64,000 nt of DNA from Adineta ricciae. Lineage: Eukaryota > Rotifera > Eurotatoria > Adinetida > Adinetidae. The notes beneath the pieces were generated by a model. That model saw only the letters and a list, made by a program, of their open reading frames with translations. It was not told where the DNA came from and made no database searches. Positions 3,037 to 56,543 of this stretch are shown one piece after another (position 1 is the stretch's first letter; each line of letters begins with the position of its first letter). The stretch lies in assembly GCA_905250025.1 (NCBI GenBank), contig CAJNOJ010000012.1, positions 682,001 to 746,000 of the forward strand. The letters run 5' to 3'. Position numbers and translations under genes: made by a program.

Positions 3037-6000
3037 TCAGGTAGAATGTCTAATTGGAATGCCTTGCCAAGAGGTTTGAGGAGGAATTACTTCGCCTTTG
3101 ATTACTAAACTTAATGGTCCTAATTTCGAAGCTGTGCTTAAGCGTGTATTGGGTAACATCCTTGCTGAATAGGCAAGATTTGCTTGATCTTCAATACTGA
3201 TTTCAGCCATTTTCATCACACGATCTTCGAACAAATGAGTTTGAAGTTCTGTTCCAGCATCGAGCACAACCTGATTGCCGATATTAATTAAATCGAATTC
3301 AGTAATTTCAATTGTATTAATGTAACAATACTGGCCAATTCTTACACCAAAACAACGCAAGACGGGAGCGATCAGGAAAGTTCCACGCAAAAATTCCAAT
3401 AAAAGTCCTGCAGCTAATTGCTCGAAAGTGACTGTAACGAAATCCGATAACCACACGAACCAACTCCATAGAGGATAATAATTAGTTCGATATTTTCCCA
3501 CCAGCAACCATTTCAGAGCAATACAAAGCAATGTAGATGGTATTGCAAGTATAGCGAAGTATAAAAGAGGTACGAGAAATAATGAATAGCCAAAATCAGC
3601 GGACTCGTTCAATTGCTCGAAGATCTGAGTCGCTATACCGATTTCTAGAACAATGACAATTCGCGGTAGAAACACACGCACTGTATCGATACAAAAACGT
3701 TGAACAATCACAGAGATGTTGGGTTGGTATGTCAAGTTTTCTGAAATATCACCAGCAACTTGTTCTCGATTCGGCAAGATAAACGCTGGTGAACCAAGAC
3801 ACGATTGTTTTGCTTGCATGCCATCAGCAACGAGAGACATGCATCCAATTAAACATTCATTCGGTATTTGCTTTCCGTCGGGAACGATAGCGGTATTTCC
3901 AATGAAAACACGTTTGCCAATCGTTGTCCGTTGTAAATGCATCTGCCCGAATCGAATGTATGGATCACAAAGAAGAACATTGTCAGCGATGAAACATTCA
4001 TCACCGATTTCAACTAACGAATGAACCATTCCTATCGCCGTCGATACTTCACAACGATTACCAATCTTCATTCCTAATGTTCGGAGAAAAGGCACCATAT
4101 ACAGCGTAGCATAAAATGTATGGATAATATGTAATGCAATGTCAAGAACTCGATCGAATAACCATTTTCGTATGTAAACAAATGATTGCGTACTGTAGAC
4201 GCCTACCGTTAGAGTACCAATAAACAAAAAGCGAATAACAACGATTTGTACAATAACTAAACATGTATATAAGATGCCAACAGGAACACCGAAGATAAAC
4301 ACTTCTATCCAGTCGTTAACTGATTTTAAATCTACATATTCGAAGAGAATAAGACCTGGAATCGTTGGAATAAAATAGAAGAATGGTATGAAGAAAACAA
4401 CGATCACAGTGAAAATGATTGGAGTGATTAGAGATTTGAATTTATTCTTGGTTGTGCCGTAAGTCAATGCTCCTATATCGACATTATGCGAATAGGTAGC
4501 TGGCGAGCCATGCCATACTTCGCCGGTAGGTACGGATGTATTAGATGGCAGAAAGGATAAATCATCTAATTCAGAATAATCATTCATTTTTGTTTGTCCA
4601 TTTAGTACACTTCGACTTCCGACATAAACATATCTGTCGATACAAATGCGACGAAATTTCAACGTATAATCTTCGACAAAGGCGGTCTGAAAATGCACTT
4701 CTGATGATATGGTGGTTTCATTATCGATTTCCAATAGATCAGGTGCGGCACAACTGATAGAGCCCAAATGAACATTACGGCCAATTCTTGCACCGAGAAG
4801 TCGATAATATATACTCATCAATGGGCTATCCGCTAATACACCTTCCATAGCTAGATTTCGTAATTGCTCGACAGTCCACCAGCGCAGGTACATCCAACCC
4901 CATAATGGAAAGTCACCTTCTTTATATCGACCAATCAGTATCCATTTGATTAAAACAGGAAAACTGTATCGAACTATCATTGTAACAACTAGTGTTCCAT
5001 AGGCGACAAGACATGCATAGCCAAGATCATGTTCGTGCAACAGTAAAACAAACGTTATGTATGGTAAAAGAAGTTCCATGGAGGCAATTGTACCGAGTAT
5101 CAACATTACTAGTAATTGGTAAATGCTACACAGAATGATTCTTGTCAGAGAAGGTTTAACGTAAGCAGCAAAAGGTTTCGCGATGCTTTCGTCGTTCTTC
5201 TTTTCAATGGATTGATTAGTTAACCGTTCAGCAAGTTTAGTTGCGGTTTTGCATTCGTACAAATCGTGCAGAGCAACACTTGGAAAGTATTTTCGTAATT
5301 CAGCGATTGTAAGTGCGGCGATCAATGAATGACCACCAAGATCGAGGAAAAAATCATTATTTGGCTTTACTTGTTGATGTGGAAAACTCTTCTGAAAAGT
5401 ATTAATAACAACGTCGATTGGTTGACTATTCCCATTTGGCTCGTTGATAGTATGCTCTACTGCAATGTTGGAATTAATTTCTACTTTGGAAAGTTTTGGT
5501 TTTTTCATGTCATCTATTAACAAGAGAGCTTTGCGATCTATTTTGCCGCTGGGTAATCGAGGCATTGCTCCATCGACTTTAATTAATCGATCAGGTACCA
5601 TGTAAGAAGGCAGCCGTTGTCTGAGTTCTTCTCGCATTTGTGATTCGGTCAAGTTGCCCACGACGAAAGCGATCAACTGCTCATGAACAACAGCCACAGC
5701 AGCAGATATAACTTGACCTTCTAATCGGAGTAATTCCTGTTCGATTTCATCAAGTTCCATACGAAAACCGCGAAGTTTAACTTGAGAATCAATTCGTTCG
5801 TGGAAAAAGATCTGCCCGTTTTGAATCGACACACGATCACCTGTGCGATAACCGTATTCCGTGAATTTTTCTTTAGTCAGTGCTTCACGATTAACATAAC
5901 CCAGAGCAACACCTGGTCCGCGTATACATAATTCACCGATTGTTGTAGAAGTTGGCTGACCCGTCTCCTCATCGAGGAAACAACATACATAATTAGGTAA

Positions 6001-6079
6001 CGGAGCACCGATGCTAATTGGTTGGCCAGGACGCAGAGATTGCACAGTAGCAGCAACTGTTATTTCAGTAGGACCATAC
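3037..6079 (-). CDS. NRPS-like poly-amino-acid synthetase, copy 1 (3' part)
   Basis: This is the larger second exon of the gene seen complete at 31388-35384; the 5' end is cut off by the N at 6080. What remains starts at the adenylation core motif YGPTE and holds YRTGD, RGFRMELDEIE, the A10 motif LPSGKIDRKAL, a carrier domain with LGGHSL (phosphopantetheine Ser), then about 730 residues alternating hydrophobic segments with left-handed beta-helix-like repeats. There is no condensation or thioesterase domain. This layout is that of bacterial epsilon-poly-L-lysine synthetase-type enzymes. The frame is open throughout. Its missing first exon is probably the fragment at 41563-42379. The apparent N-terminal extension read across the N is artificial. 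Confidence 0.85.
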
Positions 6080-28350: not shown

Positions 28351-29030
28351 AAGATTGAATCAGCTTAGACAAGACAACAGTCACAAGTGTTCCCGACAAA
28401 ACAACGATGACATCGTCAGTTTGACACAAATGTTCGATTTCACTCAGAAAGCAATAAGCATCATAGTATAATTGATAATTTTCGCCATTGATTTCCTCAC
28501 AAATATACGAATGATATGTTTCGTTCGAGAATTTATGCATGAAAAGTCCACCATCGCATCTTCATCGATCCGTACTACACTGTTATTTAGAGAGTCAATG
28601 TCCAATGCTATGTATGATTCTTCCCTGAGCGAAATAAGTTCGAAGAAGTGTTATTTGGTCATCGATGCGTATGAGTAAACAGAAAGAAGGTAAAAGATTT
28701 TCTTTCGCGTTCTGTCATGATGAGTTGTAATTTGCATCAATTCAAACAAAATGTGCATGGAAAGTATCAGGGTAAAGAGGTGAAAATTGAAACCGATGGA
28801 TATAAATAGGCGAGTAGGAAGTTGTCCTACTCCTTCTCCATCCTGGAAATGAAATCCTGACATAAATTTACTGTTTCGTGATCATCAAGAGTTCCAACGA
28901 CGATATACGAGCAAAGATCTTCTTGTGTAAAATGCTTTTCTTTTTGGTCATTCATGCACGGCGAAATGACATAGAACACTTTCGACTGTTGAGTGAAAGG
29001 GAAAAATTTGTTCGAAAAACGAAATAGTAA
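28351..29030 (-). pseudogene. Degenerate hypothetical gene, copy 2
   Basis: Counterpart of 1-650. Here the segment near 28651 has an in-frame TAA where copy 1 reads Gln (after the shared YASMTK), and a Phe codon is missing just after. In contrast, the part nearest the low-coordinate end (28325-28540, containing ICEEINGENYQLYYDAY and DDVIVVLSGTL) is open here but frameshifted in copy 1. The two copies thus carry different lesions. Product unknown. Confidence 0.35.
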
Positions 29031-29134
29031 AACGGAACGTGAGTCATTCGCAAGAGAACGAAATGAAAAAGAAAATAACATGTGCATATTTCTGTTTGTT
29101 CTACAGCGATACAATGTAGATCATGAAGCTGAAA

Positions 29135-29542
29135 TTAAGCGCGAGCGTCTTCAATATACTCTTCAAATACTTTCAAACAATCATCAAAATTGTAAAATTT
29201 CGTTGGTTTCTTGTTGCAAAAGTTTTCACTATTTTGAATTGCGTCATATCCATTCATTCCACCGAGTAAATGAACATAAAATCTGTCAGGTACGTCACGT
29301 TGAGACATATCCATGGAGAAACCAAAAGAGCATCCAAATCCCACAGAAACATTCGCGATTTCTATCATATGAGATGGTCGTTGTTTAACAACATCCAGTT
29401 CTCGTTGAAGCGCTTCTAATGACAAAACGCCTCTTGTCTTATTCAGTTGTGTCAATTGATCTTGTGTCAATCTCAATATTTTCTCAATAATGTCGTTCAC
29501 AGTCGATAGTGATTCATCAGTTTGTAATTCACTAAAATCCAT
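29135..29542 (-). CDS. Hypothetical 135-aa protein, copy 2
   Basis: Same length as the gene at 780-1187, starting at Met-Asp-Phe-Ser-Glu (ATG at 29542) and ending with TAA. The frame extends upstream to 29650 but the first copy has no such extension, so the shared ATG is preferred. About 12 substitutions separate the copies, mostly conservative, with the central GFGCSFGFSMDM and LLGGMNGYDAI kept. No recognised domain. Confidence 0.6.
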   Translation of the reverse strand: MDFSELQTDESLSTVNDIIEKILRLTQDQLTQLNKTRGVLSLEALQRELDVVKQRPSHMIEIANVSVGFGCSFGFSMDMSQRDVPDRFYVHLLGGMNGYDAIQNSENFCNKKPTKFYNFDDCLKVFEEYIEDARA

Positions 29543-29998
29543 TGTTTTTTGTTCTTCGATGATTATAAAATGTGCTTTTATACTTACTTTTTCGTTCGTT
29601 CTGAGATAAACGAAGCCCTTTCGATGAAAAAGAATGCTATCGAAAAACAAACCGTCACACTACATTTTCTACTGTTACTTTACGTAAAAATTCTTTAAAT
29701 GATGGTCAAGAAGATGACGCAATCGCTCTAAGTTGGCGACAATCATCAGGTGTCATCCTTCTCTGTCTTTTCTCTCTTAGTAAACGATCGTAAGGGTCTC
29801 TGACGCAAATAATATTGACGATCGGATATCTCTATTTGCTGAATATAATAAATATGGATCATTATCATCCTGTATAACCTATAAGTCACATATGCATAAA
29901 TATGCATTCAAATATTAGCTCGCTATACAGATTACTCATATAAATGTACTAGATATTTTTCATACGAATTTTGTTTTGAAAAACATTGATTTCTTTCT
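29543..29998. other. Shared upstream region of divergent genes, copy 2
   Basis: Counterpart of 1188-1642; holds the presumed promoters of the 135-aa and membrane-protein genes. No gene seen. Confidence 0.45.
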
Positions 29999-31030
29999 AT
30001 GGCATCGATTGGTGTTCCTGTCTCCGCGTCGAATTTTAGTATTGATTCAGAAATGTATGTATTTCAATCAACACTGGAATTGTTTCAAGGAATCAGTGAT
30101 AAAATCATTCTCTCTATCTATTCCATTGTGCTTCTCGTTAGTGTTATACAGACATTTTGGAAGAATAAACATATCGATCGATTCTTAGCTTTCATGATGG
30201 AGGCGTATTCTGATGGAAAATTTGGATCAAGTCAAATATATTATCGTCAGCGAATTATCACCTGTTATCGATACGACCAACGATATTCTTACATTCCCAA
30301 TCCGAATCGGTCTATCCTACTTATATTTGCCATTCATATTCAAACCTTTCTGATGATCGGTATTCAAACAGTATTCGATCGACGGAAAGAAAGTATTAAT
30401 GATTGCTGGTCATTTCATATGCCATATGAAGTACTTCAATGTGAAGACCAAAGAGATCCATGTGGATATAATGATACTACAGGAACGAGTCCAAAATGCA
30501 CGTTTTATCACTTTGAAATGGCCCACCTAATCACGGTAGTCACGTCGATTGTTACTTGGCATTATGCTCTGAGATATTTCGTTGTTAAATTGATTCGATT
30601 CGCTCGTTGGGCAATGTTTCGTGATAATGACCAACCGCGAAAGGTGTGCTGGTGTTGTTGTCTGGCAACACCACGCTATTTACGATTTATAATGTACTTT
30701 CAGTATGGTTTTTTCTGGATCAATATATTAGCTGTTGTCTTGTGTGGTTTTATATTGAATGTAATGATCTTTCGTTTGTCAATGAACACATTCGGATCCG
30801 TTTGGGCACCGATAATCATAGCAGCAGATGGAATATGTTCACTATTTTTAACAGTGGGACCTGAATTATTACAAAACTGGCTGAATGCAACCATGAATGG
30901 TAAAGTTCTGTTAATTATAGAACAACAAGAGTTGTACCTGAACAAGGTCGAACCACTAGTTTCCTTGATCGACGAGAAAGTTGAAGTGCCGAAGTCATCC
31001 AATACCAAATGTCGAGGTTGTTGTTGCTAA
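29999..31030 (+). CDS. Multi-pass membrane protein of unknown family, copy 2
   Basis: 343 residues, same length as the gene at 1643, with no indel. Roughly 20 substitutions, mostly conservative (Val/Ile, Ala/Thr, Ser/Thr). All loop Cys, the CWCCC cluster and the C-terminal CRGCCC are retained; one Cys (APRC region of copy 1) is Tyr here. Strong preservation suggests both copies are under constraint. Family unknown. Confidence 0.75.
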   Translation: MASIGVPVSASNFSIDSEMYVFQSTLELFQGISDKIILSIYSIVLLVSVIQTFWKNKHIDRFLAFMMEAYSDGKFGSSQIYYRQRIITCYRYDQRYSYIPNPNRSILLIFAIHIQTFLMIGIQTVFDRRKESINDCWSFHMPYEVLQCEDQRDPCGYNDTTGTSPKCTFYHFEMAHLITVVTSIVTWHYALRYFVVKLIRFARWAMFRDNDQPRKVCWCCCLATPRYLRFIMYFQYGFFWINILAVVLCGFILNVMIFRLSMNTFGSVWAPIIIAADGICSLFLTVGPELLQNWLNATMNGKVLLIIEQQELYLNKVEPLVSLIDEKVEVPKSSNTKCRGCCC

Positions 31031-31387
31031 TGTCTGTGATACATTTTTTGCTGTGTCTGCTCATTGTATTCATCTTTTGTTAATATCACCTAGACTATCA
31101 TAGTCGAGACGCTATTATGTGTTGTTCGTACTATTTTTATAATTAAATGACGAAAAATTTTCAAGTTCAATAAATTATCAGTCAATTCGTCTTAGTCGTT
31201 TTCAGTATCTTAAAAAATTTCCTCTGATCTTTGGTACCGGTCAGTGCAAAGTTCCTCCTTAGACAATCGGTTTTATTCATCATACGCTCTGATATTTATT
31301 TGTAATAATAGTGAAGCAACAGCATGTCTTACAAACGTTTATTCGAGTACTTCATTGGAGTAGAGTACAAACGATAAGACGCGATTT
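31031..31387. other. Convergent 3' intergenic region, copy 2
   Basis: Counterpart of 2675-3036, with 3' UTRs of the membrane-protein and NRPS-like genes. No gene. Confidence 0.45.
31169..31174 (+). promoter_or_regulatory. Candidate poly(A) signal, copy 2
   Basis: AATAAA about 140 bases after the stop codon, conserved in position with 2813. Confidence 0.5.
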
Positions 31388-34300
31388 TCAAGTAGAATGT
31401 CTAATTGGAATGCCTTGCCAAGAGGTTCGAGGAGGAATTGCTTCGCCTTTGATTACTAAACTTAATGGTCCTAATTTGGAAGCTGTGCTTAAGCGTGTAT
31501 TGGGTAACATTCTTGCTGAATAGGCGAGATTTGCTTGATCTTCAATACTGATTTCGGCCATTTTCATCACACGATCTTCGAACAAATGAGTTTGAAGTTC
31601 TGTTCCAGCATTGAGCACAACCTGATTGCCGATATTAATTAAATCGAATTCAGTAATTTCAACTGTATTAATGTAACAATACTTGCCAATTCTTACACCA
31701 AAACAACGCAAGACGGGAGCGATCAGGAAAGTTCCACGCAAAAATTCCAATAAAAGTCCTACAGCTAATTGTTCGAAAGTGACTGTAACGAAATCCGATA
31801 ACCATACGAACCAGCTCCATAGAGGATAATAATTAGTTCGATATTTTCCCACCAGTAACCATTTCAGAGCAATACAAAGCAATGTAGATGGTATTGCAAG
31901 TATAGCGAAGTATAAAGGAGGTACAAGAAATAAAGAATAGCCAAAATCAGCGGACTCGTCCAATTGCTCGAAGATTTGGGTCGCTATACCGATTTCTAGA
32001 ACAATGATAATTCGTGGTAGAAACACACGCACCGTATCGATACAAAAACGTTGAGCTATCACAGAGATATTGGGTTGGTATGTCAAATTTTCTGAAATAT
32101 CATTGGTAACTTGTTCTCGATTCGGCAAGATAAACGCCGGCGAACCAAGACACGATTGTTTTGCTTGCATGTTATCAGCAACGAGAGACATGCATCCAAT
32201 TAAACATTCATTCGGTATTTGCTTTCCGTCGGGAACGATTGCAGTATTCCCAATGAAAACACGTTTGCCAATTGTTGTCTTTTGTAAATGCATCTGTCCG
32301 AATCGAATGTATGGATCACAAAGAAGAACATTATCAGCGATAAAACATTCATCACCAATTTCAACTAATGAATGAACCATTCCTATCGCTGTTGACACTT
32401 CACATCGATTACCAATCTTCATTCCTAATGTTCGGAGAAAAGGTACCATATACAGCGTAGCATAAAATGTATGGATAATATGTAATGCAATGTCAAGAAC
32501 TCGATCGAATAACCATTTTCGTATGTAAACAAATGATTGCGTACTGTAGACACCTACCGTTAGAGTACCAATAAACAAAAAGCGAATAACAACAATTTGT
32601 ACAATAACTAAACATGTATATAAGATGCCAACAGGAACACCGAAGATAAACACTTCTATCCAGTCGTTAACTGATTTTAAATCTACATATTCGAAGAGAA
32701 TAAGACCTGGAATCGTTGGAATAAAATAGAAGAATGGTATAAAGAAAACAACGATCACAGTGAAAATGACTGGAGTGATTAGAGATTTGAATTTATTCTT
32801 GGTTGTGCTGTAAGTCAATGCTCCTATATCGACATTATGCGAATAGGTAGCTGGCGAGCCATGCCATATTTCACCGGTAGGTACGGATGTATTAGATGGC
32901 AGAAAGGATAAATCATCTAATTCAGAATAATCGTTCATTTTTGTTTGCCCATTTAGCACACTTCGACTTCCGATATAAACATATTTCTCGATACAAATAC
33001 GACGAAATTTCAACGTATAATCTTCGACAAAGGCGGTCTGAAAATGCACTTCTGATGATATGGTTGTTTCATTATCGATTTCCAATAGATCAGGTGCGGC
33101 ACAACTGATAGAGCCTAAATGAACATTACGGCCAATTCTTGCACCGAGAAGTCGATAATAGATACTCATTAATGGGCTATCCGCTAATACATCTTCCATA
33201 GCTAGATTTCGTAATTGCTCGACAGTCCACCAACGCAGGTACATCCAACCCCATAACGGAAAGTCACCTTCTTTATATCGACCAATCAGTATCCATTTGA
33301 TCAAAACAGGAAAACTGTATCGAACTATCATTGTAACAACTAGTGTTCCATAGGCGACAAGACATGCATAGCCAAGATCATGTTCATGCAACAGTAAAAC
33401 AAACGTTATGTATGGTAAAAGAAGTTCCATGGAGGCAATTGTACCGAGCACCAACATTACTAGTAACTGGTAAATGCTACACAGAATGATTCTTGTCAGA
33501 GAAGGTTTAACGTAAGCAGCAAAAGGTTTCGCGATGTTTTCGTCGTTTTTCTTTTCAATGGATTGATTAGTTAACCGTTCAGCAAGTTTAGTTGCGGTTT
33601 TGCATTCGTACAAATCGTGCAGAGCAACACTGGGAAAGTATTTACGTAACTCAGCGATTGTAAGTGCGGCGATCAATGAATGACCACCAAGATCGACGAA
33701 GAAATCATTATTTGGCTTTACTTGTTGATGTGGAAAACTCTTCTGAAAAGTATTAATAACAACGTCGATTGTTTGACTATTCCCATTTGGCTCGTTGATA
33801 GTATGCTCTGCTGCAATGTTGGAATTAATTTCTACTTTGGTAAGTTTTGATTTTTTCATGTCATCTATTAACAAGAGAGCTTTGCGATCTATTTTGCCGC
33901 TGGGTAATCGAGGCATTGCTCCATCGACTTTAATTAATCGATCAGGTACCATGTAAGAAGGTAGCCGTTGTCGGAGTTCTTCTCGCATTTGTGATTCGGT
34001 CAAGTTGCCCACCACGAAAGCGATCAACTGCTCATGAACAACAGCCACAGCAGCAGATATAACTTGACCTTCTAATCGGAGTAATTCCTGTTCGATTTCA
34101 TCAAGTTCCATACGAAAACCACGAAGTTTAACTTGAGAATCAATTCGTTCGTGGAAAAAGATCTGTTCGTTTTGAATCGACACACGATCACCTGTGCGAT
34201 AACCGTATTCCGTGAATTTTTCTTTAGTCAGTGCTTCACGATTAACATAACCCAAAGCAACACCTGGTCCGCGTATACATAATTCACCGATTGTTTTAGA

Positions 34301-35384
34301 AGTTGGCTGACCCGTCTCCTCATCGAGTAAACAACATACATAATTAGGTAACGGAGCACCGATGCTAATTGGTTGGCCAGGACGCAGAGATTGCACAGTA
34401 GCAGCAACTGTTATTTCAGTAGGACCATACGAATTGAATATCACCCGACTTTCTTTCCACCACCGATTAACAAGTGTCTAGAGGTCATAAACATTATCGT
34501 ATGAAGAAGCGCTTTATTTTGTATTATATCTCTTTTACCTGTGGACAAGCTTCTCCGCCGGTATTGATGAGACGAATTTTCAATGCAGGATCGTCGGACA
34601 TCAAAAGCAGTAGCGTTGGCACACAAAACAAAACCGTGATTGAATGACGACTGAAGAATAAATGTAATTGGTCACTATTTAAAATATCTGTTTTAGACGC
34701 GATGACCAAAGTTGCGCCCACAAAGTACGAAAGAAATGTTTCTTCAAGAAACATATCAAACGCAGCTGAAGAACCCTGATAAACAACATCATCATACTTG
34801 ATTTGCATCGCTTCATTATCAGCGCGAATGAAATGGCAAATACTCTGATGACTGATTGCAATCGCTTTTGGTTTGCCTGTCGAACCCGACGTACAGATGA
34901 TATAAGCTGGTAAATTTCTATGAGTATTTACGGTTAATTGAGCAATTTTATAGATACTATCACTTTTCTCGACTACGTGTTCAACATTGAATGCTGATGG
35001 GTGTGTTATCGGACGACGTGAATCGACAAGGAGAAGTGCGACTTGCAAATCTTCAAGTACTTCATTGACACGTTCCTCGGGCGCATCAGCATCAAATGGA
35101 ACATACGTTGCACCGGTCATCAAAACAGCGAGAATGGTAACGTGTAACTGAGCTGAGCGTGCCAGCCATATAGCTACTCGATCACCTGTACCGATGTGTT
35201 TTGTTTGCTGTAAAACTGCAGCTAAACAGGATGCACGTTGATAGAGCTGGTGATAGGTAATCTCTTCATTTTGCCAACGAATAGCGACTTTATCGGGAAA
35301 GTTTTGTGCTGTCTGAATGAAGATCTCATGCAGAAGTTCATCTTTTAGTAGATCAGGTCGTTCTGGTCCAAATAGAGTTGTCAT
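31388..35384 (-). CDS. NRPS-like synthetase, epsilon-poly-lysine-synthetase architecture (complete)
   Basis: Two exons, 34539-35384 and 31388-34477, separated by a 61-bp GT-AG intron, give 1311 residues. The start is the first in-frame ATG (MTTLFGPERP); upstream codons lack one. Adenylation domain: TSGSTGKPKA (165-174), FDMFLEE with Asp210 that would hold the substrate alpha-amino group, NSYGPTE (297-303), YRTGD (375-379), SGKIDRKAL with Lys477. Carrier domain: LGGHSL, Ser549 for phosphopantetheine. The rest, to 1311, alternates membrane helices with hexapeptide-type beta-helix repeats in about three related units. No condensation or thioesterase domain. Streptomyces Pls, which makes epsilon-poly-L-lysine, has this order and, from memory, 1319 residues. 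So a membrane enzyme joining amino acids without a template is likely; the amino acid is not determined. A bacterial origin is inferred. The single small intron argues it is truly in the animal genome. Confidence 0.85.
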
Positions 35385-37753
35385 TGTCGGAGTTCTCTCA
35401 ATTATCACGTCATCTAAAATACCATTATGAAAATGCCGTGTTTGGCAAACGATTTCCAGTATCAAAGTAAAGTGAGTGTAACTTACTCGTTTATAATATC
35501 ATATTTGCGTATGGTAATCCTTTTCGCGTTGTTGATTCTTTCAATAATACATAATAGAAAACTTCCTATTCATAAGAAAAAGAAAAAAAAATTCAAAGTA
35601 ACGCAAAAAAAGCTTTTCTCTTTAATTCTTAAAAAGAAGCGCAAACCATGTGACCATACTCTCTTGTAAACACTTCTTCGACAGGAAAAAGAAAAAGCAT
35701 AATTTCCTCATTGAATTACAGATCATTATTAAAATACAATAGGCGACATTGTGCAATGAAAAGGTCGGACTGAATTTGCATGTCTTTTATTCAAATTGAT
35801 GATATACTACAAAATAATCCAGTAAACTTATGTTTATTTCGCATATGTGAGTCGGGTGAATTACTGTCATTATATAGGTAATATTATGGGCGGGGTCTAC
35901 AATGAATAGATTACTGTTCACCTGTACTTTTATATCACGAATAGGTCATGGCAATACAAACAAATTTCGTTGTCGTTGCACTTTTGGGTATCAATTTTGT
36001 TTTGATTATTCAAGATTCAACGTGATAAACTTTTTGTGCTCCCTTTAAAGCAACTAATGACTTGTCAGGAGTGTGTCATGTTGCATATAAAATTGCTTTT
36101 CTTAGGTGTGATGGACAATAATGAAAACTTGCTAAGATAAATATGTATACCAAATACTTTTATACTTCTGTTAGCAGAAAATTTCTGCGTACTCATTGGT
36201 TGGTAATAGAAGATATAACATAATCAAAGTTAACCTACCTGTGCTTGTATTGTTCATCAAATGTGAGAATGATCGCTTATACCCTTCGGGATGACGCAAT
36301 CATCTTCAAAATCACAATTGTATCTTTTTCTGTGTCGAATGCAACTTATATAGAAACACAAATACAATAAAGTCAGAAAGAAAAGGTCAATGACCGGTGA
36401 CAAGGTTAATAAGTGCAGTGCATGACCGTTTCAATACACTTTTCTTGGTAGAGTTCATTGCATTCTCCAATTACATTCTAAGACAGCTTATGTGTATTTC
36501 TTGGTATGGTCTCATTTGTCTCATCGCTTCGTAGTTTTTGATGCATCATTAATGAAAATCTTTGACTTCATCGTAGAAATTCAATTCTTAAATCTGCAAA
36601 CACCTCACTCGGAGGTTCTTCAGATGTACAAGCGTTGATCATCAGAAACTTTTCAATCTTGTTTGATTGGGAAAAACGTCAAGTTAAAATCACACATACT
36701 CAAAATCAAAGCTCATCGAACATGTTCTTCTCATGTAAAGACGATGTGTAAACAAGACAAAATGATTTACTCATCTCCGAATTCTCCTGTGTAAAGAAAA
36801 CGATAAAATACATTTTTAATGGTGAATCCAGCTCGCACTCATCGAGTAGAGAAACATTGGAAGAAGATGAATCGTTTTCATACTTTTGTCTCTCGGAATC
36901 TATCATTCAAGCCTCCAGTAAATAATCGAACTACGTAGTACAAAAATAGACTAAAACTCTGATTATTCCCGAAAAAATATATTTGAACTAGTCTTTGTTC
37001 TTTAAACATTTCTTATGGGAACATAGCGTGTGGAAACAGAAAACAAGAACGCAATTTTTCCTTCGCAGTTTACTACAAGTAATCAATAATAAATGAAGTT
37101 CTTTTATTTCTGCGAAATTCACAAAAAAAAACAAGCGTCTATTGTTTTTTGAATATTCTGGATCATCTTTCACTCAAGAGAAACATTTTACGCGTTCTCG
37201 AAATATTGAAGTTGAAGACGATCATATCTGGGCTACTCCCTTCCTCATTGTTATTCGCCGTGCTCATTTGATAACTTAAATTTTACTATTGTTATTCTTA
37301 AGAAACTTTTACGAAAAAGTTCTAACAACGACCGAATTCGCGAAGATCTGCGATGTACAGGTCACCGAAATACAAGTTGGCTAATATGAAAAGAAAAGAC
37401 TTTAGTTTTAGAGCGAAGCCTTATTCCGATCTATTTCGGTACTCCTATGACATACTTTAGGAAATGTTCTAGTTTTAAAAAATAGTTTAGACAATGTTTT
37501 CAAAGAACTTAAAATTATCTTCCGAATACAAAGAAGTCATGAAAGTCAACAAGGAAAGACATGACTATTGTCCGTAAACGAGTTTTCTTGTTTGTGTTCA
37601 GTCTTGTTTCATCTCATCAATAATGATCGAGAAATTCAATTTCTTCTCCGCAGTTTCAAAGCATACAACTTATAAATATAAAGGATTTTCTCGAAGACAA
37701 AACTCATTTCAGTACTTTACACGATCGATCAAATCGCAAACATTTTATCCATC
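35385..37753. other. Intergenic between NRPS-like and polycystin genes, copy 2
   Basis: About 2.4 kb between divergent genes, alignable to 42380-44603 but with many small indels, as expected of mostly non-coding DNA. It contains the upstream regions of both genes. A 61-codon minus frame is noted separately. A (GA)n microsatellite lies just beyond, at about 37863-37880, inside the first polycystin intron, and is shorter in the other copy. Confidence 0.5.
36988..37173 (-). other. 61-codon frame conserved between copies (uncertain)
   Basis: A frame starting MKDDPEYSKNNRR has the same length, start and stop as the frame at 43839-44024, while the surrounding DNA carries indels. About 14 residues differ, many non-conservatively, so constraint is weak. 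Cys/Lys-rich C-terminus; no family recognised. Might be a short exon or chance. Confidence 0.2.
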
Positions 37754-40700
37754 ATGGATAGTTCATATCTGTGGTGGATTATTCTGATGGGTATTGGTTC
37801 GACCACAGGTAAATTTAAAATAAGGATCATTGGTTCATTCGCAGAAAAACGAACTCATGTCTCGAGAGAGAGAGAGAGAGTAGCATTCTAAGTAAGATAA
37901 TGCACTCCAAAGCCAATGGCTAAAACAAGAGAGATGTCTATGATGAATACAGAAAATGCGTCTGCAAATTTTTCCGTTAGAGCTTTGACTGGCTGATACT
38001 ATCGAAGAAATTAATCGAATGTTTTCTTTTGCTTTACTAGCTGTTTCATTTTACCAACCGAAGTTTTGTCCAAATGTAACGTGGAATACAAAGGCTACAA
38101 CATTTGTAGGGACCAATGTTATTGGTACGCAGCTTATGTCGATCTTCATCGATACCAATGACAATATATACGTGTCCAGCACCCAATATAACCAAGTCAT
38201 TGTATGGAGTAAAAATAGCACTACTCCAACAGCATATATTTCTGGCAATTTAAAGCAGCCCTGTGGGCTTTTTGTTACTACAGCAGGTGATATTTTTGTT
38301 GACAACGGCTTTTCATATGGTCGAATAGAAAGATTTTCATCAAACGGAACACAATACAGTCCTGCCATGTATATCAGTTCATATTGTAATGGGCTGTTTA
38401 TTGACGCCAACGACACACTATACTGTTCGATAAATCAAGCACATGTCGTTGTTAAAAGATCATTAAATAGCAACTCAAGTGCTACTTCAATCGCTGCTGG
38501 CAAGTCAAACAACAGTGGATATGCATTAGACAAGCTGTATAAACCGAATGGTCTCTTTGTTGACAACGACTTTAACCTATATGTAGCAGACTCTGGAAAT
38601 GCTCGAATCCAGCGATTCCAACTTGATCAATTGAATGCAACCACAATAGTAGGAAACGGTTCGAATCAATCTGTGCCACTCAGTTATCCTACAGGAATCA
38701 TGTTCGATGCCGATAATAATTTGTACATTGCTGATTACCACGCTAATCGCATTATAATATTTGCTGCCGGCGGTTATCGTTGCCTTCCATCATGCTCGAC
38801 TACTGCGGGTCCAGGATCTACTCAGCTGAATGCGCCTTCGTGTATGGCTTTTGATCGTTACGGAAATATGTTCGTAGCTGATCAACTAAATGGTCGTGTT
38901 CAGAAATTTACTCTTTTAACTAATTCATGCGGTGTGTTCTTTTGAGCTTGATCTTTTCTCTTTTAAACAATAAATATCAATGTTTGAATATTTTAGATTC
39001 AACGACGCTTGCCCCCTCAACGACACAAGTTATAACAGGTTCATTAATCAGCGCATACTCGTGAGTAAAAAGAGAAAGTATTTATTTTTTCAGGATCTAC
39101 CACATTGACAACATCGACAACTACATCAGTATCCTCACAGTATATATCATCGACCGAGGACGCGACAACGGAACCATCACGGGTATCGACAACTACCACA
39201 ACGACGATCACCTCTCAAATAATACTTTCGAATCAAAGTACTGCTGTTGTATAACATCCATGAGTAGGATACCAACTAGAATATTTCTAGGTTGTTCTCC
39301 GAATGTTACGATTGTTCCAACAGCATCAAGATTGAGTTCACCATTGCAAGTTCGTCGCAGTCAGAATTTTTATTTTGTATCATTGATTACACTCGGTTGC
39401 TCTCAATTATTCTCGATCTCGACAAGCTGGACAATTACCTACTGTACATCAACATGTTCTAAGCAGGTTCAAATAAACGGAACAATTCTTACCACGTACA
39501 GTGATTTATACATTCCAGCTCAAGCACTTTCATATGGAATTTATAAGTTCGAATTAACAGTAACAATGGTTGATATGCCTTCGTTACAGACAACATCGTC
39601 AGTTTACGTTCATATTATCCCATCAGCTGTCACAGCAAATCTCATCCAATATGGAACCTCGATGGTCACCATCGGATACAATCAAGATCTGTTACTTGAT
39701 CCCGGATCATTTTCCGTTGACTTAGATGAATCATATTTCAATGCTACGGTATGAATGTCTCCACGAATAGTGTATCATTGTCATTATTGTTTTCTTTTAG
39801 AACTGGAAGTACAAGTACTACTGTCGAATCTACGGTCAATATAACTTTCCTAATTTTCAAGGATCATTAATCACGATTGATGATCCAACGGTTGACCCTT
39901 TCAATCGACCATGTTTGTCCAATCAAACCGAATGGCAGTTTGGTAATTCTATCCATTCATCCGTAACAATTCTCTCTCATTCGCTCCAGTCCAATCGCAC
40001 ATATCAATTCATGGTTTTGATGGAGAATCGCGATAATTCCTCTCTCCAAGGAATTGGTTATCTTCTCATCAATGTTGAAGATACTCCAAAACAATTGATT
40101 GGTGTCGGGTAAGCCACTCTTGGAAAACATATTGATGTAAAGAGGTATTTGATCTAGATGTATCATTCAAACAATGTGTGTTCCAAATATGGAATTTCAG
40201 TTGGTTAATCCATCAACACAAGTCGCATTATTCTCTGCATGTCTTAGCAACTGTTCGACTATTATAAATATCACTTGGAATATTTATTCGGGATCGATGA
40301 ACTCGTCTTCAAATGTTACTCAATGGACTTTATTCAACCAAACAAACTCCTACGAAAACATTTGGTTTTTTGGTATGTATAATTTCGATTCTTTCCGACA
40401 CCTTTGAAAATGATTAATTTAGGACGAAACACGAGTAATTTCACATCAATAAATCAACTATTCCTAATGAATCCACAAGTCAGTCTTTGGCGATTTGAAG
40501 CTCTTTATCAATTTGCATCTGAATCAAGCTCCAGCGCATTGAATTTCGTCATCAATCAACCACCATCGAATGGTTCGTGCTCGATCTTTCCATTAGCTGG
40601 TACAACCGACACATTATTCACCATTTCGTGTTCAAATTGGTTTGATGAAGATGGTATCAAAGACTATTCTCTCTATTTCTGGGCACCTGAAAAGGTCGAG

Positions 40701-41561
40701 CGATCAATGGTCACCTTTTCTGTCATTTCCACCTTTCAAGTTCGATTACCAGCGACTAGTCGAAATACTTCCCTAACCTATCTAACGATTTCTATTCGAG
40801 ATGAACACGATAGTATTCAGGAAGTCAACATTACCTCAGTGACAGTCACTGAAGATTTATCGGAAATAAATGATTTACTGAACAATAAAACATCGAATTC
40901 GATTGTTCAACTGCTTTCCGGCAGCAATCAAAATACTGCTGGACAAATTTTGAGTTCATTATCTCAACAATTGAATCAGTTGAACCTACAAAATCTTGAC
41001 GAAGCCGTGTCAAACCAAATTCCATTATCTACAATTTCAATTTCTCAATTGGACCAACAAAGAACACCACAAGCACTTTCCCTGTCGAATAGTTCGGCAA
41101 TGAACAACTTCACTAAAAATTTGAATTCTCAAGCAAATGTTCGAGAATATCTGATCAATTTTACTGAAACTTTTCCGATATTCACATCGAATAGTATCGC
41201 GTTTCAAGCATTCATTCTCTCTCAATTAACAGAAGCAACAAATCAATTGACACGATCATCAGCGGTATAAAACATTACTTTGTCCTTTCATCTAAATCTC
41301 TATTTTTCTTGTAGATAACGGCGTCGAATAAATGCTATCAGTTGGCGAATAATCTAAATGCAATATCAACAAAAATTACTTACGAAGACGTCCAGATTAG
41401 TGCTGAACAAATAACGAAATGTATTACAAATGTTTTAACAGTAATTCATCAAGATTCTCCGTTGAATGCTTCCATCTTCACTTTTTTCAATCCTAGGCTA
41501 TCAATGGACCATTGCAAGGACGAACAACAGCTCTTGATCTGGACTATTCTCGTGCTAATGA
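37754..41561 (+). CDS. NHL-REJ polycystin-like protein, copy 2 (5' half, cut by assembly)
   Basis: Same gene as 44604-53013. The first exon encodes a signal peptide (MDSSYLWWIILMGIGSTT). The next large exon carries NHL beta-propeller repeats (for example LYVADSGNARIQRF and LYIADYHANRIIIF). A Thr/Ser-rich linker exon (39094-39237) is 33 bases longer than in copy 1, in frame. REJ-type exons with many N-glycosylation sites follow. The copy stops at the N at 41562, inside an exon of the extracellular region (GRTTALDLDYSRAND), before the GPS, PLAT and channel parts. All frames read are open. It is broken by the assembly, not by mutation. Confidence 0.8.
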
Positions 41562-41562: not shown

Positions 41563-42379
41563 TGAGACGAATTTTCAATGCAGGATCGTCGGACATCAAA
41601 AGCAGTAGCGTTGGCACACAAAACAAAACCGTGATTGAATGACGACTGAAGAATAAATGTAATTGGTCACTATTTAAAATATCCGTTTTAGACGCGATGA
41701 CCAAAGTTGCGCCCACAAAGTACGAAAGAAATGTTTCTTCAAGAAACATATCAAACGCAGCTGAAGAACCCTGATACACAACATCATCATACTTGACTTG
41801 CATCGCTTCATTATCAGCGCGAATGAAATGGCAAATACTCCGATGACTGATTGCAATCGCCTTTGGTTTGCCTGTCGAACCCGACGTACAGATGATATAA
41901 GCTGGTAAATTTCTATGAGTATTTACGGTTAATTGAGCAATTTTATAGGTACTATCACTTTTCTCGACTACGTGTTCAACATTGAATGCTGATGGGTGTG
42001 TTATCGGACGACGTGAATCGACAAGAAGAAGTGCGACTTGCAAATCTTCAAGTACTTCATTGACACGTTCCTCGGGCGCATCAGCATCAAATGGAACATA
42101 CGTTGCACCGGTCATCAAAACAGCGAGAATGGTAACGTGTAATCGAGCTGAGCGTGCCAGCCATATAGCTACTCGATCACCTGTACCGATGTGTTTTGTT
42201 TGCTGTAATACTGCAGCTAGATAAGATGCACGTTGATAGAGCTGGTGGTAGGTAATCTCTTCATTCTGCCAACGAATAGCGACTTTATCGGGAAAGTATT
42301 GTGCTGTTTGAATGAAGATCTCGTGCAGAAGTTCATCTTTTAGTAGATCAGGCCGTTCTGCTCCAAATAGACTTGTCAT
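41563..42379 (-). CDS. NRPS-like synthetase, 5' fragment (first exon)
   Basis: About 272 residues from ATG at 42379 (MTSLFGAERP) to the N, matching the first exon of the complete gene at about 97%. It includes TSGSTGKPKA and the FDMFLEE substrate-anchoring motif. It stops just before the exon end (ALKIRL), so the last 28 or so bases of the exon, the intron and the start of exon 2 are absent. It is most likely the missing beginning of the copy at 3037-6079, which starts 137 bases further on in the reference copy. Confidence 0.85.
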
Positions 42380-44603: not shown

Positions 44604-47600
44604 ATGGATAGTTCATATCTGTGGTGGATTATTCTGATGAGCATTGGTTCGACTACGGGTAAATTTGAAATAAAGGTCATTGATTCACTCGTAGGAAAGT
44701 CGAGTTCATGTCTTGTGAGAGAGAGAGCAGCATCCTAAGTAAGATAATGCACTCCAAAGTCAATAGCTAAGACAAGAGCCATGTCTATGATGAATACAGA
44801 AAATGCGTGTACAAATTTTTCAGTTAGGGCTTTTACTGGTTGATACTATCGAAAAAGTTAATTGAATGTTTTCTTTTGCTTTGCTAGCTGTTTCATTTTA
44901 CCAACCGAAGTTTTGTCCAAATGTAACGTGGAATACAACGGCTACAACATTTGTAGGGAGCAAAGTTATCGGTACGCAGCTTATGTCGATTTTCATCGGT
45001 ACCAATGACAATATATACGTGTCCAGCGCCCAATTTGACCAAGTCATAGTATGGAGTAAAAATAGCACTACTCCAACGGCAAATATTTCTGGTAATTTAT
45101 ACCAGCCAACTGGGCTTTTCGTTACTACAGCAGGTGATATTTTTGTTGACAACGGCTATTTATATGGTCAAATAGAAAGATTTTCATCAAACGGAACACA
45201 ATACAGTCCTGCCATGTATGTTAGTTCATATTGTAACGGGCTCTTTATTGATGCTAACGACACATTATACTGTTCGATAAATCAAGCACATGTCGTTGTT
45301 AAAAGATCATTAAATAGCAACTCAAGTGCTGCTTCAATCGTTGCTGGCAAGTCAAACAAAAGTGGATATGCATTAGACAAGCTGTATAAACCGAATGGTA
45401 TATTTGTTGACAACGATTTTAACCTATATGTGGCAGACTCTGGAAATGCTCGAATCCAGCGATTCCAACTTGATCAATTGAATGCAACCACAATAGTAGG
45501 CAACGGTTCGAATCAATCTGTGCCACTCAGTTATCCTACAGGAATCATGTTCGATGCTGATAATAATTTGTACATTGCTGATTACCACGCTAATCGCATT
45601 ATAATATTTACAGTCGGTGGTTATCGTTGCCTTCCATCATGCTCGACTACTGCGGGTTCAGGATCTGCTCAACTGAATGCGCCTTCGTTTACGGCTTTTG
45701 ATCGTTATGGAAATATATTCGTAACTGATCAACTAAATGGTCGTGTCCAGAAATTTACTCTTTTGACTAATTCATGCGGTGTGTTCTTTTGAGCTTCATC
45801 CTTTTTCTTTTAAACAATAAATATCAATGTTTGAATATTTTAGACTCAACGATGCTTGCCCCCTCAACGACACAAGCTATAACAGGTTCATTAATCAGCG
45901 CATACTCGTGAGTAAAAAGAGAAAGTATTTATTTTTTCAGGATCTTCCACATTGACAACGTCGACAACTACATCAGTATCCTCACAGTATATATCATCGA
46001 CCGGGGACGCAACAACGACCATCACCTCTCAAATAATACTTTCGAATCAAAGTACTGCTGTTGTATAACATCCCTGGGTAGGATACCAACTAGAATATTT
46101 CTAGGTTGTTTTCCGAATGTTACGATTGCTCCAACAGCACCAACATTGAGTTCACCATTGCAAGTTCGTCGCAGTCAGGATTTTTATTTTGTATCATTGA
46201 TTACACTCGATTGCTCTCAATCATTCTCGATCTCAACAAGCTGGACAATTACCTACTGTACATCAACATGTTCTAAGCAGGTTCAAATAAACGGAACAAT
46301 TCTTACCACGTACAGTGATTTATACATTCCAGCTCGAACACTTCCATATGGAATTTATAAGTTCGAATTAACAGTAACAATGATTGATATGCCTTCCTTA
46401 CAGACAACATCGTCAGTTTACGTTCATATTATCCCATCAGCTGTCACAGTAAATCTCATGCAATATGGAACCTCGATGGTCACCATCGGATACAATCAAG
46501 ATCTGTTACTAGATCCCGGATCATTTTCCGTTGACTTAGATGAATCATATTTCAATGCTACGGTATGAATGTCTCCACGAATAGTGTATTATTGTCATTA
46601 TTGTTTTCTTTTAGAACTGGAAGTACAAGTACTACTGTCGAATCTACGGTCAATATAACTTTCCCAATTTTCAAGGATCATTAATCACAATTGATGATCC
46701 AACGGTTGATCCTTTCAATCAACCATGTTTGTCCAATCAAACCGAATGGCAGTTTGGTAATTCTATCCATTCGTCTGTAACAATTCTCTCTCATTCGTTC
46801 CAGTCCAATCGCACATATCAATTCATGGTTTTGATGGAGAATCGCGATAACTCCTCTCTCCAAGGAACTGGTTATCTTCTCATCATTGTTGAAGATACTC
46901 CAAAACAATTGATTGGTGTCGGGTAGGCCACTCTTCGAAAACATATTGATGTAAAGATATATTTGATCTAGATGTGTCATTCAAACAATGTGTGTTCCAA
47001 ATATGGAATTTCAGTTGGTTAATCCATCAACACAAGTTGCATTATTCTCTGCATGTCTTAGCAACTGTTCGACTATTATAAATATCACTTGGAATATTTA
47101 TTCCGGATCGATGAACTCGTCTTCAAATGTTACTCAATGGACTTTATTCAACCAAACAAGCTCCTACGAAAATATTTGGTTTTTTGGTATGTATAATTTT
47201 GGTTCTTTCCGGCACCGTTGAAAAGGATTCATTTAGGACGAAACACGAATAATTTCACATCAATAAATCAACTATTCCTAATGAATCCACAAGTCAGTCT
47301 TTGGCGATTTGAAGCTCTTTATCAATTTGCATCCGAATCAAGCTCCAGCGCATTGAATTTCGTCATCAATCAACCACCATCGAATGGTTCGTGCTCGATC
47401 TTTCCATTGGCCGGTACAACCGACACGTTATTCACCATTTCGTGTTCAAATTGGTTTGATGAAGATGGTATCAAAGACTATTCTCTCTATTCCTGGGCAC
47501 CTGAAAACGTCGAGCGATCAATGATTACCTTTTCTGCCATTCCCACCTTTCAAGTTCGATTACCAGCGACTAGTCGAAATACTTCCCTAACCTATCTAAC

Positions 47601-50600
47601 GATTTCTATTCGAGATGAACACGATAGTATTCAGGAAGTCAACATCACCTCAGTAACGGTCACTGAAGATTTATCTGAAATAAATGATTTACTGAACAAT
47701 AAAACATCGAATTCGATTGTTCAACTACTTTCCAGTACCAATCAAAATACTGGTGGACAAATTTTGAATTCGTTGTCTCAACAATTGAATCAGTTGAACC
47801 AACAAAATCTTGACGAAGCCGTGTCAAACCAAATTCCATTATCTACAATTTCAGTTTCTCAATTGGACCAACAAAGAACACCACAAGCACTTTCTCTGTC
47901 GAATAGTTCGGCAATGAACAACTTCACTAAAAACTTGAATTCTCAAGCGAATGTTCGAGAATATCTGATCAATTTTACTGAAACTTTTCCGATATTCACA
48001 CCGAATAGTATCGCGTTTCAAGCATTCATCCTCTCTCAATTAACAGAAGCAACAAATCAATTGACACGATCATCAGCGGTATAAAACATTACTTTGTCCT
48101 TTCATCTAAATCTCCATTTTTCTCGTAGATAACGGCGTCGAATAAATGCTATCAATTGGCGAATAATCTAAATGCAATATCAACAAAAATTACTTACGAA
48201 GACGTCCAGATTAGTGCTGAACAAATAACGAAATGTATTACAAATGTTTTAACAGTAATTCATCAAGATTCTCCTTTGAATGCTTCCATCTTCACTTTTT
48301 TCAATCCTAGGCTATCAATGGACCATTGCAAGGACGAACAACAGCTCTTGATCTGGACTATTCTCGTGCTAATGACTTTCCTGCTGATTATGATACTGAT
48401 CTGGAATCTGCATGGTCAAATCCAAGTATGTCTCTATGTTTTCGTCAGATGACGAGAGATCTGATTTTGTTCTGAAAAGAATTGTTTGCTGATGGCGATG
48501 ATTTTTCATGGAGTACAATAGAGAAGAATCGAAATCTTTACTATCAAAAACAAGCACAGAACCAAGTCAGCCAACAAACAAATCAATCACTTGCCTTCTT
48601 AACGTCCGCACTGAATAATCATTTGAATATCGGCCAAAACTTCACTATCAATGCATCATCGATTTTTATGTCATTACAAGTAATGTCGACGGAATCTCTT
48701 TCAAATCAAATCATCAAACCAATTAACAATGCGCAAATTCAACTTCCATCCATTATTCAGTCAAACGATCGTTCAGTATCACTTCGAGTATGTTTTTCTT
48801 CATCTGATTTCTCGTTGCTATTTTCATCTTTATTAATTTTAGTCAATTGTTCAACCACTGGCACCAGCAGATCAATCGCGTTCATATACAAATCTTTCCA
48901 GAACCATTTCCCTTTCGATTCTTGATCGAAATGGAAACGAACTTTCATATCCAACATCATCCAATAATCCATATCGATTTGTGATTCCACGAGATTCAAA
49001 TCTCATTCTTCCGTCGATGGTATCACAAAATGTTACTTCGATGAACAGCATCCAGCACCATCTTCTGTTCAACCTGCATTATGTTGATTTGTCTCACTCG
49101 AGTGGTGTGTCTGTATCGGTTCACATAGGAATGAAACCATTAAATCCGAGTCTCGGTTATTTATTAATTTATAAATTTGACAGTTCGCCAGTGTTGAACA
49201 GTTCAATGTCTCAAATTGATAAGTGGTCTTTATTTTGTCCTTCAAGTTTGTCACTTTTCCATGAAACTTTTCGAATAATGCGGAGGTCATCATTTCAGAT
49301 TTGACCATCGACAACATGTATACTTATTTTATCAATAATCAACTAACAAACAACTATGAATCGCTGATCTTTGGTTTACGTGAACTGAACTCGACCGAAA
49401 TGCTTCACTATTGTTCAACTCCATCGACCGATCCGCCCATCACTAACGAACCATTCCATTTTACATCGAATTATGAACTTCGCCTGTACACGTCCGGTTG
49501 TTACTATCTTGATTCAAATAATCGATGGCAATCCGATGGATTGATTGTAAGTCATTTCTACGTTACAAAATAAAGTTCTTTTTCTTAATCCTTCAAAAGG
49601 TCGGTTCATTGACAAATGTGAATGAAACAGAATGCTTATCGACTCATTTAACAACGTTTGCAGGTGGATTTCTTGTGTTACCAGCACCTATCAACTGGAA
49701 TTATGTCTTCGCAAATGCTGATTTCAATCGCAACAAAACAATTTATATCACCGTAATCTGCGTTTCTATTCTTTATCTACTCATAATGACCTATGCACGC
49801 TATAAGGATAAAAAGGACATTGAAAAAGTAAGATGCGATGTATTTATTTCAAAATGCGAAACTGTTTCATTTCAGTTGGGAGTGCTTGCATTGGAAGATA
49901 ACCGTAAGGAAGATCAGTATTGCTATCAAATCATTGTCTTCACTGGAAATCGAAAGAATGCTGGAACCAAATCTCGAGTTCATTTCATTCTTGCTGGTGA
50001 TGAAGATGAAACACAAGTTCGAACCTTCAATCATTCCAAGCGACAGATATTTCAACGTGGCCAAGTGGATTCATTTGTGATGACTATTCCTAAATCATTG
50101 GGAAAACTGAATTATATTCGTGTTTGGCATAACAATCAAGATAATTCATCGTGGTTTTTGAAATATTTGATCGTTCGTGATTTACAAACATTGGAAAAGT
50201 CGTATTTTATTTGTCAACGATGGTTTGCCATTGACGAAGATGATGGACGTGTAAGTGCTTCTACTGCGTAATATTCAGTGTTCCATGTTTGGAGTTTTAG
50301 ATCGAACGTCTCTTACCCGTGTCAAGTGAATTGCAAATGGATAAATTTGCGTATATTCTGTCCAAACAAACCTATTATAATATCTCTGAAGATCATCTAT
50401 GGTTCTCGATCTTTTCTCGTCCACCATCGAATACATTCACACGTGTTCAACGATGTACCTGCTGTTTCGTGTTACTACTCACTTCAATGTTGTTAAACAT
50501 TCTCTACTATGATCAAAAGAATGACGCAAAAAGTAGCACCGGTGGAAAGAGTAGTCTGTCGTTTGGTCCATTGTACATCACACCTGAACAGGTTTGTCAT

Positions 50601-53013: not shown

Positions 53014-53548
53014 ACTTGGAGAATATTTATCATTGCACATAGAAGCTTATAATTCTAGATGCTTTTCGTGTTGTAAAGCAGTATTTAGATGTTTGAGTAT
53101 ATTCGAAATCGTTGTTGTTTTGAGGATAGATGTTGTATGTGCTGATCTCAAACAATAATGTGTCATATAATCATGAAAAAAATTCTTATCACACTTGTTC
53201 TCTTCAGCCATTTAAAATAAAATATCTGTACCATAGAAGACTTAAATGTTGCCTTACCGAAGAGAAATATATACAGTCACGTGTTCATATGCCGTGGTGA
53301 CTATATCATACCTACAAAAGTGGTCACTTATGTCCGTTTGAAAATAACAATGAAAAACTGCGAAGTCATCATACGCATCTTTATCTATTTATTTACCTTG
53401 TGATATCAAGTAAAGAAAATGAATGACAATGATCAAATAACAGAAACACATGGCCCCTGTTGCGTACGATGCTAATGCTGGTGACCTAAATGTATGTAAA
53501 AAATAATTCTTCAGTTTTTAAATTTTACTAATTCTGGAACATTCTCAG
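53014..53548. other. Intergenic
   Basis: About 535 bp between two plus-strand genes. Nothing recognised; a TTCTCAG directly before the next ATG could be a splice acceptor for a 5' UTR exon or trans-splice site. Confidence 0.4.
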
Positions 53549-55236: not shown

Positions 55237-55632
55237 ATTGATCTATGACTTATTGATCGTTTTTGTATCGCTTTTATTCGTTTCATTTTATTTAATCTTC
55301 TGAGTCATCTGTATTGATTGAAGAACGGTATTTTCCAGTGTTATTACGAGAGAACAGAAAAAACACACAGCACATGACACACCATCGTTTCTTGTCTTTC
55401 GTTCTGTAACCTTGACGGTATACACACGCGTGTCCGACGTGTTATTGCATCATCAGTATATTTCGCTATCACTTTCACCCAGTGGTGAAATACTTTCTCA
55501 ATCTTTTCTAACTCAATGAAACAATGAATACTTCCACATCGTCACTATTGCATCATTCGGTAAAAGCCAGTGATAAAGTCGTACCGATATATATACGCAA
55601 AAAACATCGATACTAGAATACATTTGGACAAA
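55237..55632. other. Intergenic
   Basis: About 400 bp between plus-strand genes; nothing recognised. In-frame codons from 55570 precede the chosen start of the next gene but lack an ATG. Confidence 0.4.
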
Positions 55633-56509: not shown

Positions 56510-56528
56510 TATGAAAAAGAGGTTTTTC

Positions 56529-56534: not shown

Positions 56535-56543
56535 TCCATCACT

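Follow-up and report, generated by a model that had tools for sequence, protein, structure and literature searches.

An Adineta ricciae gene of the Pls/PosA homopolymer synthetase family with likely bacterial ancestry

Enzymes of the Pls/PosA type build long antimicrobial chains from one kind of positively charged amino acid. The described members closest to the locus reported here are PosA, the delta-poly-L-ornithine synthetase of Acinetobacter baumannii, and two epsilon-poly-L-lysine synthetases, Pls of Streptomyces albulus and Epls of Epichloe festucae. Here we analysed a gene of this type in the bdelloid rotifer Adineta ricciae, contained in a stretch of 64,000 nucleotides (the window; assembly GCA_905250025.1, contig CAJNOJ010000012.1, hereafter C12, forward-strand positions 682,001 to 746,000). 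Its product shares with PosA the order of adenylation, carrier and terminal domains, the residues Asp, Met and Glu at the first three positions of the substrate pocket, and a terminal domain as modelled for that enzyme (PMC10522769; articles given by PMC number are cited from parts of their text). Unlike PosA, it is encoded by an animal gene with an intron and carries Phe253, Ser298 and Ala307 in place of His260, Thr304 and Ser313. The architecture is also that of Pls and Epls, but pocket position 2 is Met where the lysine enzymes are reported with Ala (PMC10522769). Epls, whose product is antifungal, provides a case of a eukaryote using an enzyme of this kind (PMC7179176).

The gene resembles the horizontally acquired genes of nonribosomal peptide synthetase (NRPS) type in bdelloids, where nonribosomal peptide/polyketide genes of A. 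vaga and A. ricciae are induced by a fungal pathogen (Nowell 2024, PMC11258130). The automated screen of that study selected only proteins combining adenylation, carrier and condensation domains, so the window protein falls outside it. The 2023 paper on PosA states that some Metazoa have homologues, and the word rotifer is absent from its main text (PMC10522769). A survey of animal NRPSs used antiSMASH 4.1.0, with neither Pls nor lysine appearing in its main text (PMC10531068). Literature listings, mostly judged from the listings alone, gave no further report of polylysine-type synthetases in rotifers or other animals, and a literature search uncovered no animal reported to make a cationic homopolymer by a nonribosomal route. 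We consider it probable that the window gene encodes an animal homopolymer synthetase of bacterial descent that polymerises a basic diamino acid. If true, the chemical defences thought to have reached bdelloids from microbes would also include a simple antimicrobial polymer.

Domain architecture and substrate pocket

The gene lies on the reverse strand and encodes a 1311-residue product in two exons. Exon 1 (34539..35384, -) specifies residues 1-282, the first part of the adenylation domain, while exon 2 (31388..34477, -) specifies residues 283-1311 and the stop codon, comprising the remaining adenylation domain, the carrier and the terminal domain. They are separated by a 61-bp GT-AG intron (34478..34538, -), retention of which introduces in-frame stops. 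A preliminary description of the locus had reported this intron and a protein with an adenylation domain, a carrier and three membrane/beta-helix units; coordinates, strand and length all agreed with our analysis. In the Pfam scan, for which the exons were scanned separately, AMP-binding and PP-binding exceeded their cut-offs, AMP-binding_C fell marginally short (24.3 vs 24.5 bits), hexapeptide repeats stayed below (23.0 vs 27), and neither a condensation nor a thioesterase domain was detected, as had been described. The carrier domain (residues 531-584; 33572..33733, -; Pfam scan) contains the phosphopantetheine serine Ser549 (33677-33679, -), which by alignment is Ser in 203 of 203 homologues. 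The adenylation and carrier motifs, Asp210 and Ser549 were all found intact, again in line with the preliminary description.

Curated models placed the protein within the family. TIGR01733 (amino-acid adenylation) scored 334.2 bits against a cut-off of 317.4, and TIGR02353 (Pls/PosA family) scored 546.8 against 423.1, with residues 618-1307 covering positions 2-695 of the 695 in the profile. By TIGR02353 the window gene is classed as a Pls/PosA-family homopolymer synthetase. An aminoadipate reductase was ruled out: TIGR03443 gave 108.7 bits against a cut-off of 1030.1, and the reductase domain had no match. Nor were matches confined to enzymes of the aminoadipate-reductase or Ebony type, the best being Adineta proteins and bacterial Pls/PosA (with no direct comparison to an Ebony model).

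Within the pocket, Asp210 (34755-34757, -), Met211 (34752-34754, -) and Glu214 (34743-34745, -) are encoded by exon 1, together with Phe253, Asn274 and Gly276; Ser298, Val306, Ala307 and Lys477 come from exon 2. The resulting code, DMEFNGSVAK, is identical to that of PosA (DMEHNGTVSK) at 7 of 10 positions. Asp210 and Glu214 align with Asp217 and Glu221 of PosA, both of which are reported to be essential (PMC10522769). Asp and Glu occupied positions 1 and 3 in all 201 complete codes obtained from the 203 homologues, and position 2 was Met in 177, Leu in 20 and Ala in 4; the A. ricciae paralogue C383b has Leu. At this position Met is reported for ornithine, Ala for lysine and Phe for diaminopropionate (PMC10522769). 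Among the PosA-type contacts the window pocket retains Met, with Thr304 changed to Ser and Ser313 to Ala, and the remaining bdelloid difference, Phe253, corresponds to His260, which is reported not to contact the substrate (PMC10522769). A search of the PDB with the pocket region returned PosA as the best match (8g97/8g95, 160.8 bits), with linear gramicidin synthase at 118 bits (two domains summed) and Pls (7wew) at 100.6 bits.

The pocket appears to resemble that of the ornithine-using PosA more closely than those of the lysine enzymes. These comparisons suggest that the substrate is likely a basic diamino acid, with ornithine the first candidate, then lysine or another diamino acid; L-ornithine specifically falls, in our estimate, somewhat short of an even chance. 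Lysine, the substrate put forward in the preliminary description, was not favoured, Met rather than Ala occupying position 2 as in PosA (PMC10522769), while the cationic homopolymer proposed there is plausible.

The terminal domain and a proposed reaction

The terminal domain spans ~710 residues and was divided, using TIGR02353, AlphaFold2 and an alignment of the units, into unit 1 (residues 600-842; 32798..33526, -), a predicted membrane helix pair with a left-handed beta-helix, unit 2 (residues 843-1080; 32084..32797, -) and unit 3 (residues 1081-1311; 31391..32083, -). An AlphaFold2 model of residues 600-1311, built with 53 homologues, had a mean predicted local distance difference test score (pLDDT) of 92.2 and a predicted template modelling score (pTM) of 0.92. 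In this model the pattern of helix pair, short strand, small helices and beta-helix occurs three times, and together with hydropathy it gives six predicted membrane helices, arranged as three pairs, and three beta-helix units. The Pls-type architecture of the preliminary description, including its tandem C-terminal units, thus survived both the curated model and structure prediction. Fold matches in the PDB, of which 50 of 524 rows were considered, were mostly hexapeptide acyltransferases of a single unit each, and no solved structure among these 50 covered the whole terminal domain. Fold searches matched no viral model at E 0.001 or better.

Unit 3 contains the motif QTHLFEDRVMK (residues 1244-1254; 31562..31594, -), a candidate active site identified by alignment of homologues. 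Conservation was 0.92-1.0 (rounded) at each position across the 203 homologues, and H[LIMV]FE.R was found in 187 of them; the A. ricciae protein P0003 ends before the motif site. When the three units were aligned, the histidine was missing in units 1 and 2, which fits one active site in a pseudo-trimer. The H-x-F-E-x-R of unit 3 (H1246, F1248, E1249, R1251) is likely to be the catalytic centre.

These features are compatible with a model in which the adenylation domain would adenylate a single basic diamino acid, Asp210 holding the alpha-amine and Glu214 the side-chain amine, and the activated amino acid would be loaded onto the phosphopantetheine of Ser549. The terminal domain, as a fused pseudo-trimer of acyltransferase-like beta-helices above six membrane helices, would then act repeatedly, condensing each side-chain amine with the thioester of the following unit, so that a cationic isopeptide chain might be released at the membrane. 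The adenylation and carrier domains of a lysine enzyme alone made no polymer, as recounted in PMC10522769, which indicates that the terminal domain is needed. The role is likely to be chemical defence, and the product may have an antimicrobial use.

Relatives, copies and alternative readings

Homologues were sought among 5.8 billion proteins, and the best 120 of 7790 matches were considered. These were headed by proteins of Adineta steineri (74%) and A. vaga (72%) and a second A. vaga gene (56%), and included P0003 of A. ricciae (87% over 78% of the length). They were followed by proteins without taxon names at 36-42% and by labelled bacteria, mostly Bacteroidota, at ~35-37%. Both A. vaga genes, the orthologue and the paralogue, sit on one 18.1-Mb contig. 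Among these 120 matches the window-type class was found in Adineta and in the unlabelled protein P0006, no labelled Rotaria protein appeared, and the labelled rows contained no fungal name; the trees held no fungal sequence.

Trees were calculated from 58, 41 and 65 rows of our choosing. From 80 loci, 23 were translated and 22 entered the 58-row tree; L064 was omitted since the match was not in its longest frame, L059 as a short end piece, and the remaining 56 since their matches end by query residue 658, with most of the terminal domain missing. A bdelloid clade of nine rows (the window gene, C383b, P0001-P0005 and P0007, all Adineta, with P0006) received a Shimodaira-Hasegawa-like approximate likelihood ratio test (SH-aLRT) support of 100 in the 58- and 41-row trees. 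Its sister was a clade of metagenome proteins (SH-aLRT 96 and 99, and 83 in the terminal-domain tree), with Rhodospirillales bacterium 69-11 and Granulibacter grouping next. The bdelloid clade is nested in the bacterial tree. The nearest non-bdelloid relatives by tree, P0008 of the metagenome clade (42% identity), P0126 of Rhodospirillales 69-11 (40%) and P0127 of Granulibacter (39%), have the pocket DMEHNGTVTK, where the bdelloids have Phe and Ala in place of His and Thr. An animal clade among bacterial homologues is here combined with animal gene structure, the pattern of a horizontally acquired gene and in agreement with the acquisition previously suggested. The trees suggest that a single acquisition from a bacterium, perhaps an alphaproteobacterium, was likely followed by duplication before the Adineta species parted.

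The two further diverged copies of the preliminary description are most readily explained as a single second copy, from the other haplotype, that the scaffold has divided. Its exon 2 part (residues 299-1311; 3037..6079, -) has 96.9% amino acid identity to the first copy and ends at the N at 6080; its exon 1 part (41563..42379, -) has 96.4% and begins at the N at 41562; ~137 bp are lacking from this copy. The window contains three single Ns (6080, 41562 and 59709), all at joins. At the DNA level, 11-6079 matches 28365-34430 (94.3%), 41563-43286 matches 34568-36317 (89.6%) and 43587-48375 matches 36753-41561 (93.3%). Upstream DNA (C12:662001-682000) matches window positions 6367-26439 at 91.6-92.9%, and downstream DNA matches 52406-59667 at 92.3-93.4%. 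The scaffold (C12 662001-753000) seems to interleave two haplotypes through single-N joins, and neighbouring genes therefore appear twice. A true tandem duplication was set aside in favour of this arrangement on the basis of the DNA matches and single Ns, without reads.

Beyond the window, a third copy, L031 on contig C356 (3110-6659 of the locus), has an in-frame stop near residue 1069; it corresponds to the public 1052-residue A. ricciae protein P0003, and its intron agrees with that of the window gene in place and length. An older pair of paralogues lies on C383; in one of them, C383b, the intron of the window gene is absent and another GT-AG intron, of 79 bp, interrupts the gene near residue 500. 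That two paralogues of a bacterial-type gene differ in their introns suggests that these introns were gained within the animal lineage. The ratio of nonsynonymous to synonymous substitution rates (dN/dS) ranged from 0.15 to 0.22 across six comparisons: between the two window copies it was 0.15 in exon 2 (dS 0.098) and 0.18 in exon 1 (dS 0.073), in comparisons with the C356 copy 0.17-0.20 (dS 0.23-0.37), between the window copy and C383b 0.18 at a dS of ~2, which is near saturation, and within the C383 pair 0.22 (terminal part compared). The gene is under purifying selection.

Several observations weigh against polymerisation of a basic diamino acid by an animal enzyme of bacterial descent. When the PDB was searched with the entire protein, linear gramicidin synthase (375.8 bits, two domains summed) ranked first, above PosA (285). 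Ala307 replaces Ser313 of PosA, whose S313A variant lost 183-fold in efficiency (PMC10522769). This Ala is present in all bdelloid sequences covering the site (window, C383b, P0001-P0005, P0007) and, among the remaining homologues, in P0144 only; the substrate may thus have shifted. The bdelloid stem branch is long (~1.0 change per site), the sister clade of metagenome proteins carries no taxonomic name, and one genomic copy is truncated, similarity on C356 ending after ~residue 1162 with most of unit 3 gone.

An epsilon-poly-L-lysine synthetase in the strict sense would have the same domain order, as in Pls and the fungal Epls (PMC7179176), and the small Ala307 could widen the pocket for a longer side chain. 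We regard it as improbable, given Met rather than the Ala reported for lysine enzymes at pocket position 2 (PMC10522769) and the weaker pocket-region match to Pls than to PosA. The bdelloid substitutions Phe253 and Ala307, the long stem and the fold matches to beta-helix acyltransferases would also suit a neofunctionalised relative that joins a basic amino acid to another amine or a surface in one or a few rounds, yielding a small amide or short oligomer. The beta-helix acyltransferases matched by fold generally act once per substrate. Such a change of function nevertheless appears unlikely, as QTHLFEDRVMK and the entire tripartite domain have been retained. Bacterial contamination or a chimeric contig, to which the bacterial affinity of the sequence and the single-N joins might point, was rejected and has a negligible probability: the gene carries a GT-AG intron, lies on two haplotypes with matching flanks of tens of kilobases among animal-type neighbours, and has public orthologues in A. 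steineri and A. vaga, the latter on the 18.1-Mb contig, while C383b carries a different intron. The animal origin stated in the preliminary description is upheld by the same evidence. Polymerisation of a basic diamino acid by an animal Pls/PosA-type enzyme is the reading we retain.

A probable second class of bdelloid proteins and the neighbouring genes

A search of the genome with TIGR02353 gave 47 matches, of which four, from the two window copies (A and B) and the two C383 paralogues, exceeded the cut-off, and the C356 copy fell below it at 371 bits. The others were far weaker and lay at ~15 places on 13 contigs (C145, C509, C644, C926, C43, C233, C363, C297, C368, C615, C548, C110 and C247; for example L034, L036, L037 and L038). 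Such weak matches mean little alone, because 13 of 14 control genomes also match TIGR02353, one of them above the cut-off. Seven of the weaker loci, candidates for what is here termed class II, were scanned in part: in six the region was preceded by adenylation-type and carrier domains, with condensation domains in two of these, while L033 (C233) showed in the scanned frame the beta-helix part only, without adenylation or carrier domain.

Five public proteins were scanned and have the order condensation, adenylation, carrier, terminal domain (the carrier match of P0290 being weak, E 2.2e-4); one ends in a methyltransferase, one in a spermine-synthase-like domain, and one has a reductase-like domain before the terminal region. 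A profile of bacterial-type Pls/PosA terminal domains matched all 113 related proteins, with 8 bacterial-type ones above 290 bits, 104 at 65-219 bits and P0313 at 26.5 bits. The last, one of 105 first grouped together, was excluded from the class II count as its score is no better than an E. coli control (WcaF, LpxD and LpxA at most 26.1 bits; WcaB no match). By organism label, 75 of the 113 are from Adineta, Rotaria or Didymodactylos and 2 are bacterial, with 36 unlabelled. The condensation domain (PF00668) occurred in 39 of them and in 0 of the 8 bacterial-type proteins, and none was seen in the domain lists of P0001-P0203.

Profile comparison of 21 class II terminal domains with the bacterial ones (hhalign) gave 100% probability and E 2.1e-61 over 601 columns at 20% identity, and a class II profile matched the window protein at 195 bits. 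Of the 64 class II proteins extending to the end of unit 3, 62 have H.[FY]E.R, and a somewhat longer form of the pattern was found in 67 of the 113. In a structure model of the A. vaga protein P0205 the tripartite pattern was repeated (pLDDT 79.7 and pTM 0.63 overall, the terminal part better). An unconstrained tree separated class II from the window-type class I, while an approximately unbiased test did not reject one clade (p 0.193; long branches meet). On these comparisons we hold with good confidence that bdelloids have a class of their own, in which NRPSs of condensation-adenylation-carrier order would end in a diverged tripartite Pls/PosA-type domain, some with a methyltransferase or spermine-synthase-like domain added. 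The tripartite domain would replace a thioesterase as a release or transfer station, with products finished at the membrane, and the window gene would have kept the bacterial form without modification alongside this radiation. If confirmed, class II would show that a polymerisation domain from bacteria was reworked as part of an assembly line specific to animals. A limited literature search found no report of it. The spermine-synthase-like domain PF01564 was observed in P0289, P0290 (Rotaria socialis) and P0296 (Adineta steineri); it follows the membrane domain in P0290 and might use a polyamine as substrate or attach one.

In a Pfam scan, the genes neighbouring the window gene (amine oxidase, major facilitator superfamily-type and CRT-like transporters) showed no clear pathway link. 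The flavin amine oxidase-like gene lies at 9124-11166 (+; PF01593, 169 bits). An NHL-repeat gene followed by further open frames is present on both haplotypes, at 37989-41290 and 44866-48084 (+).

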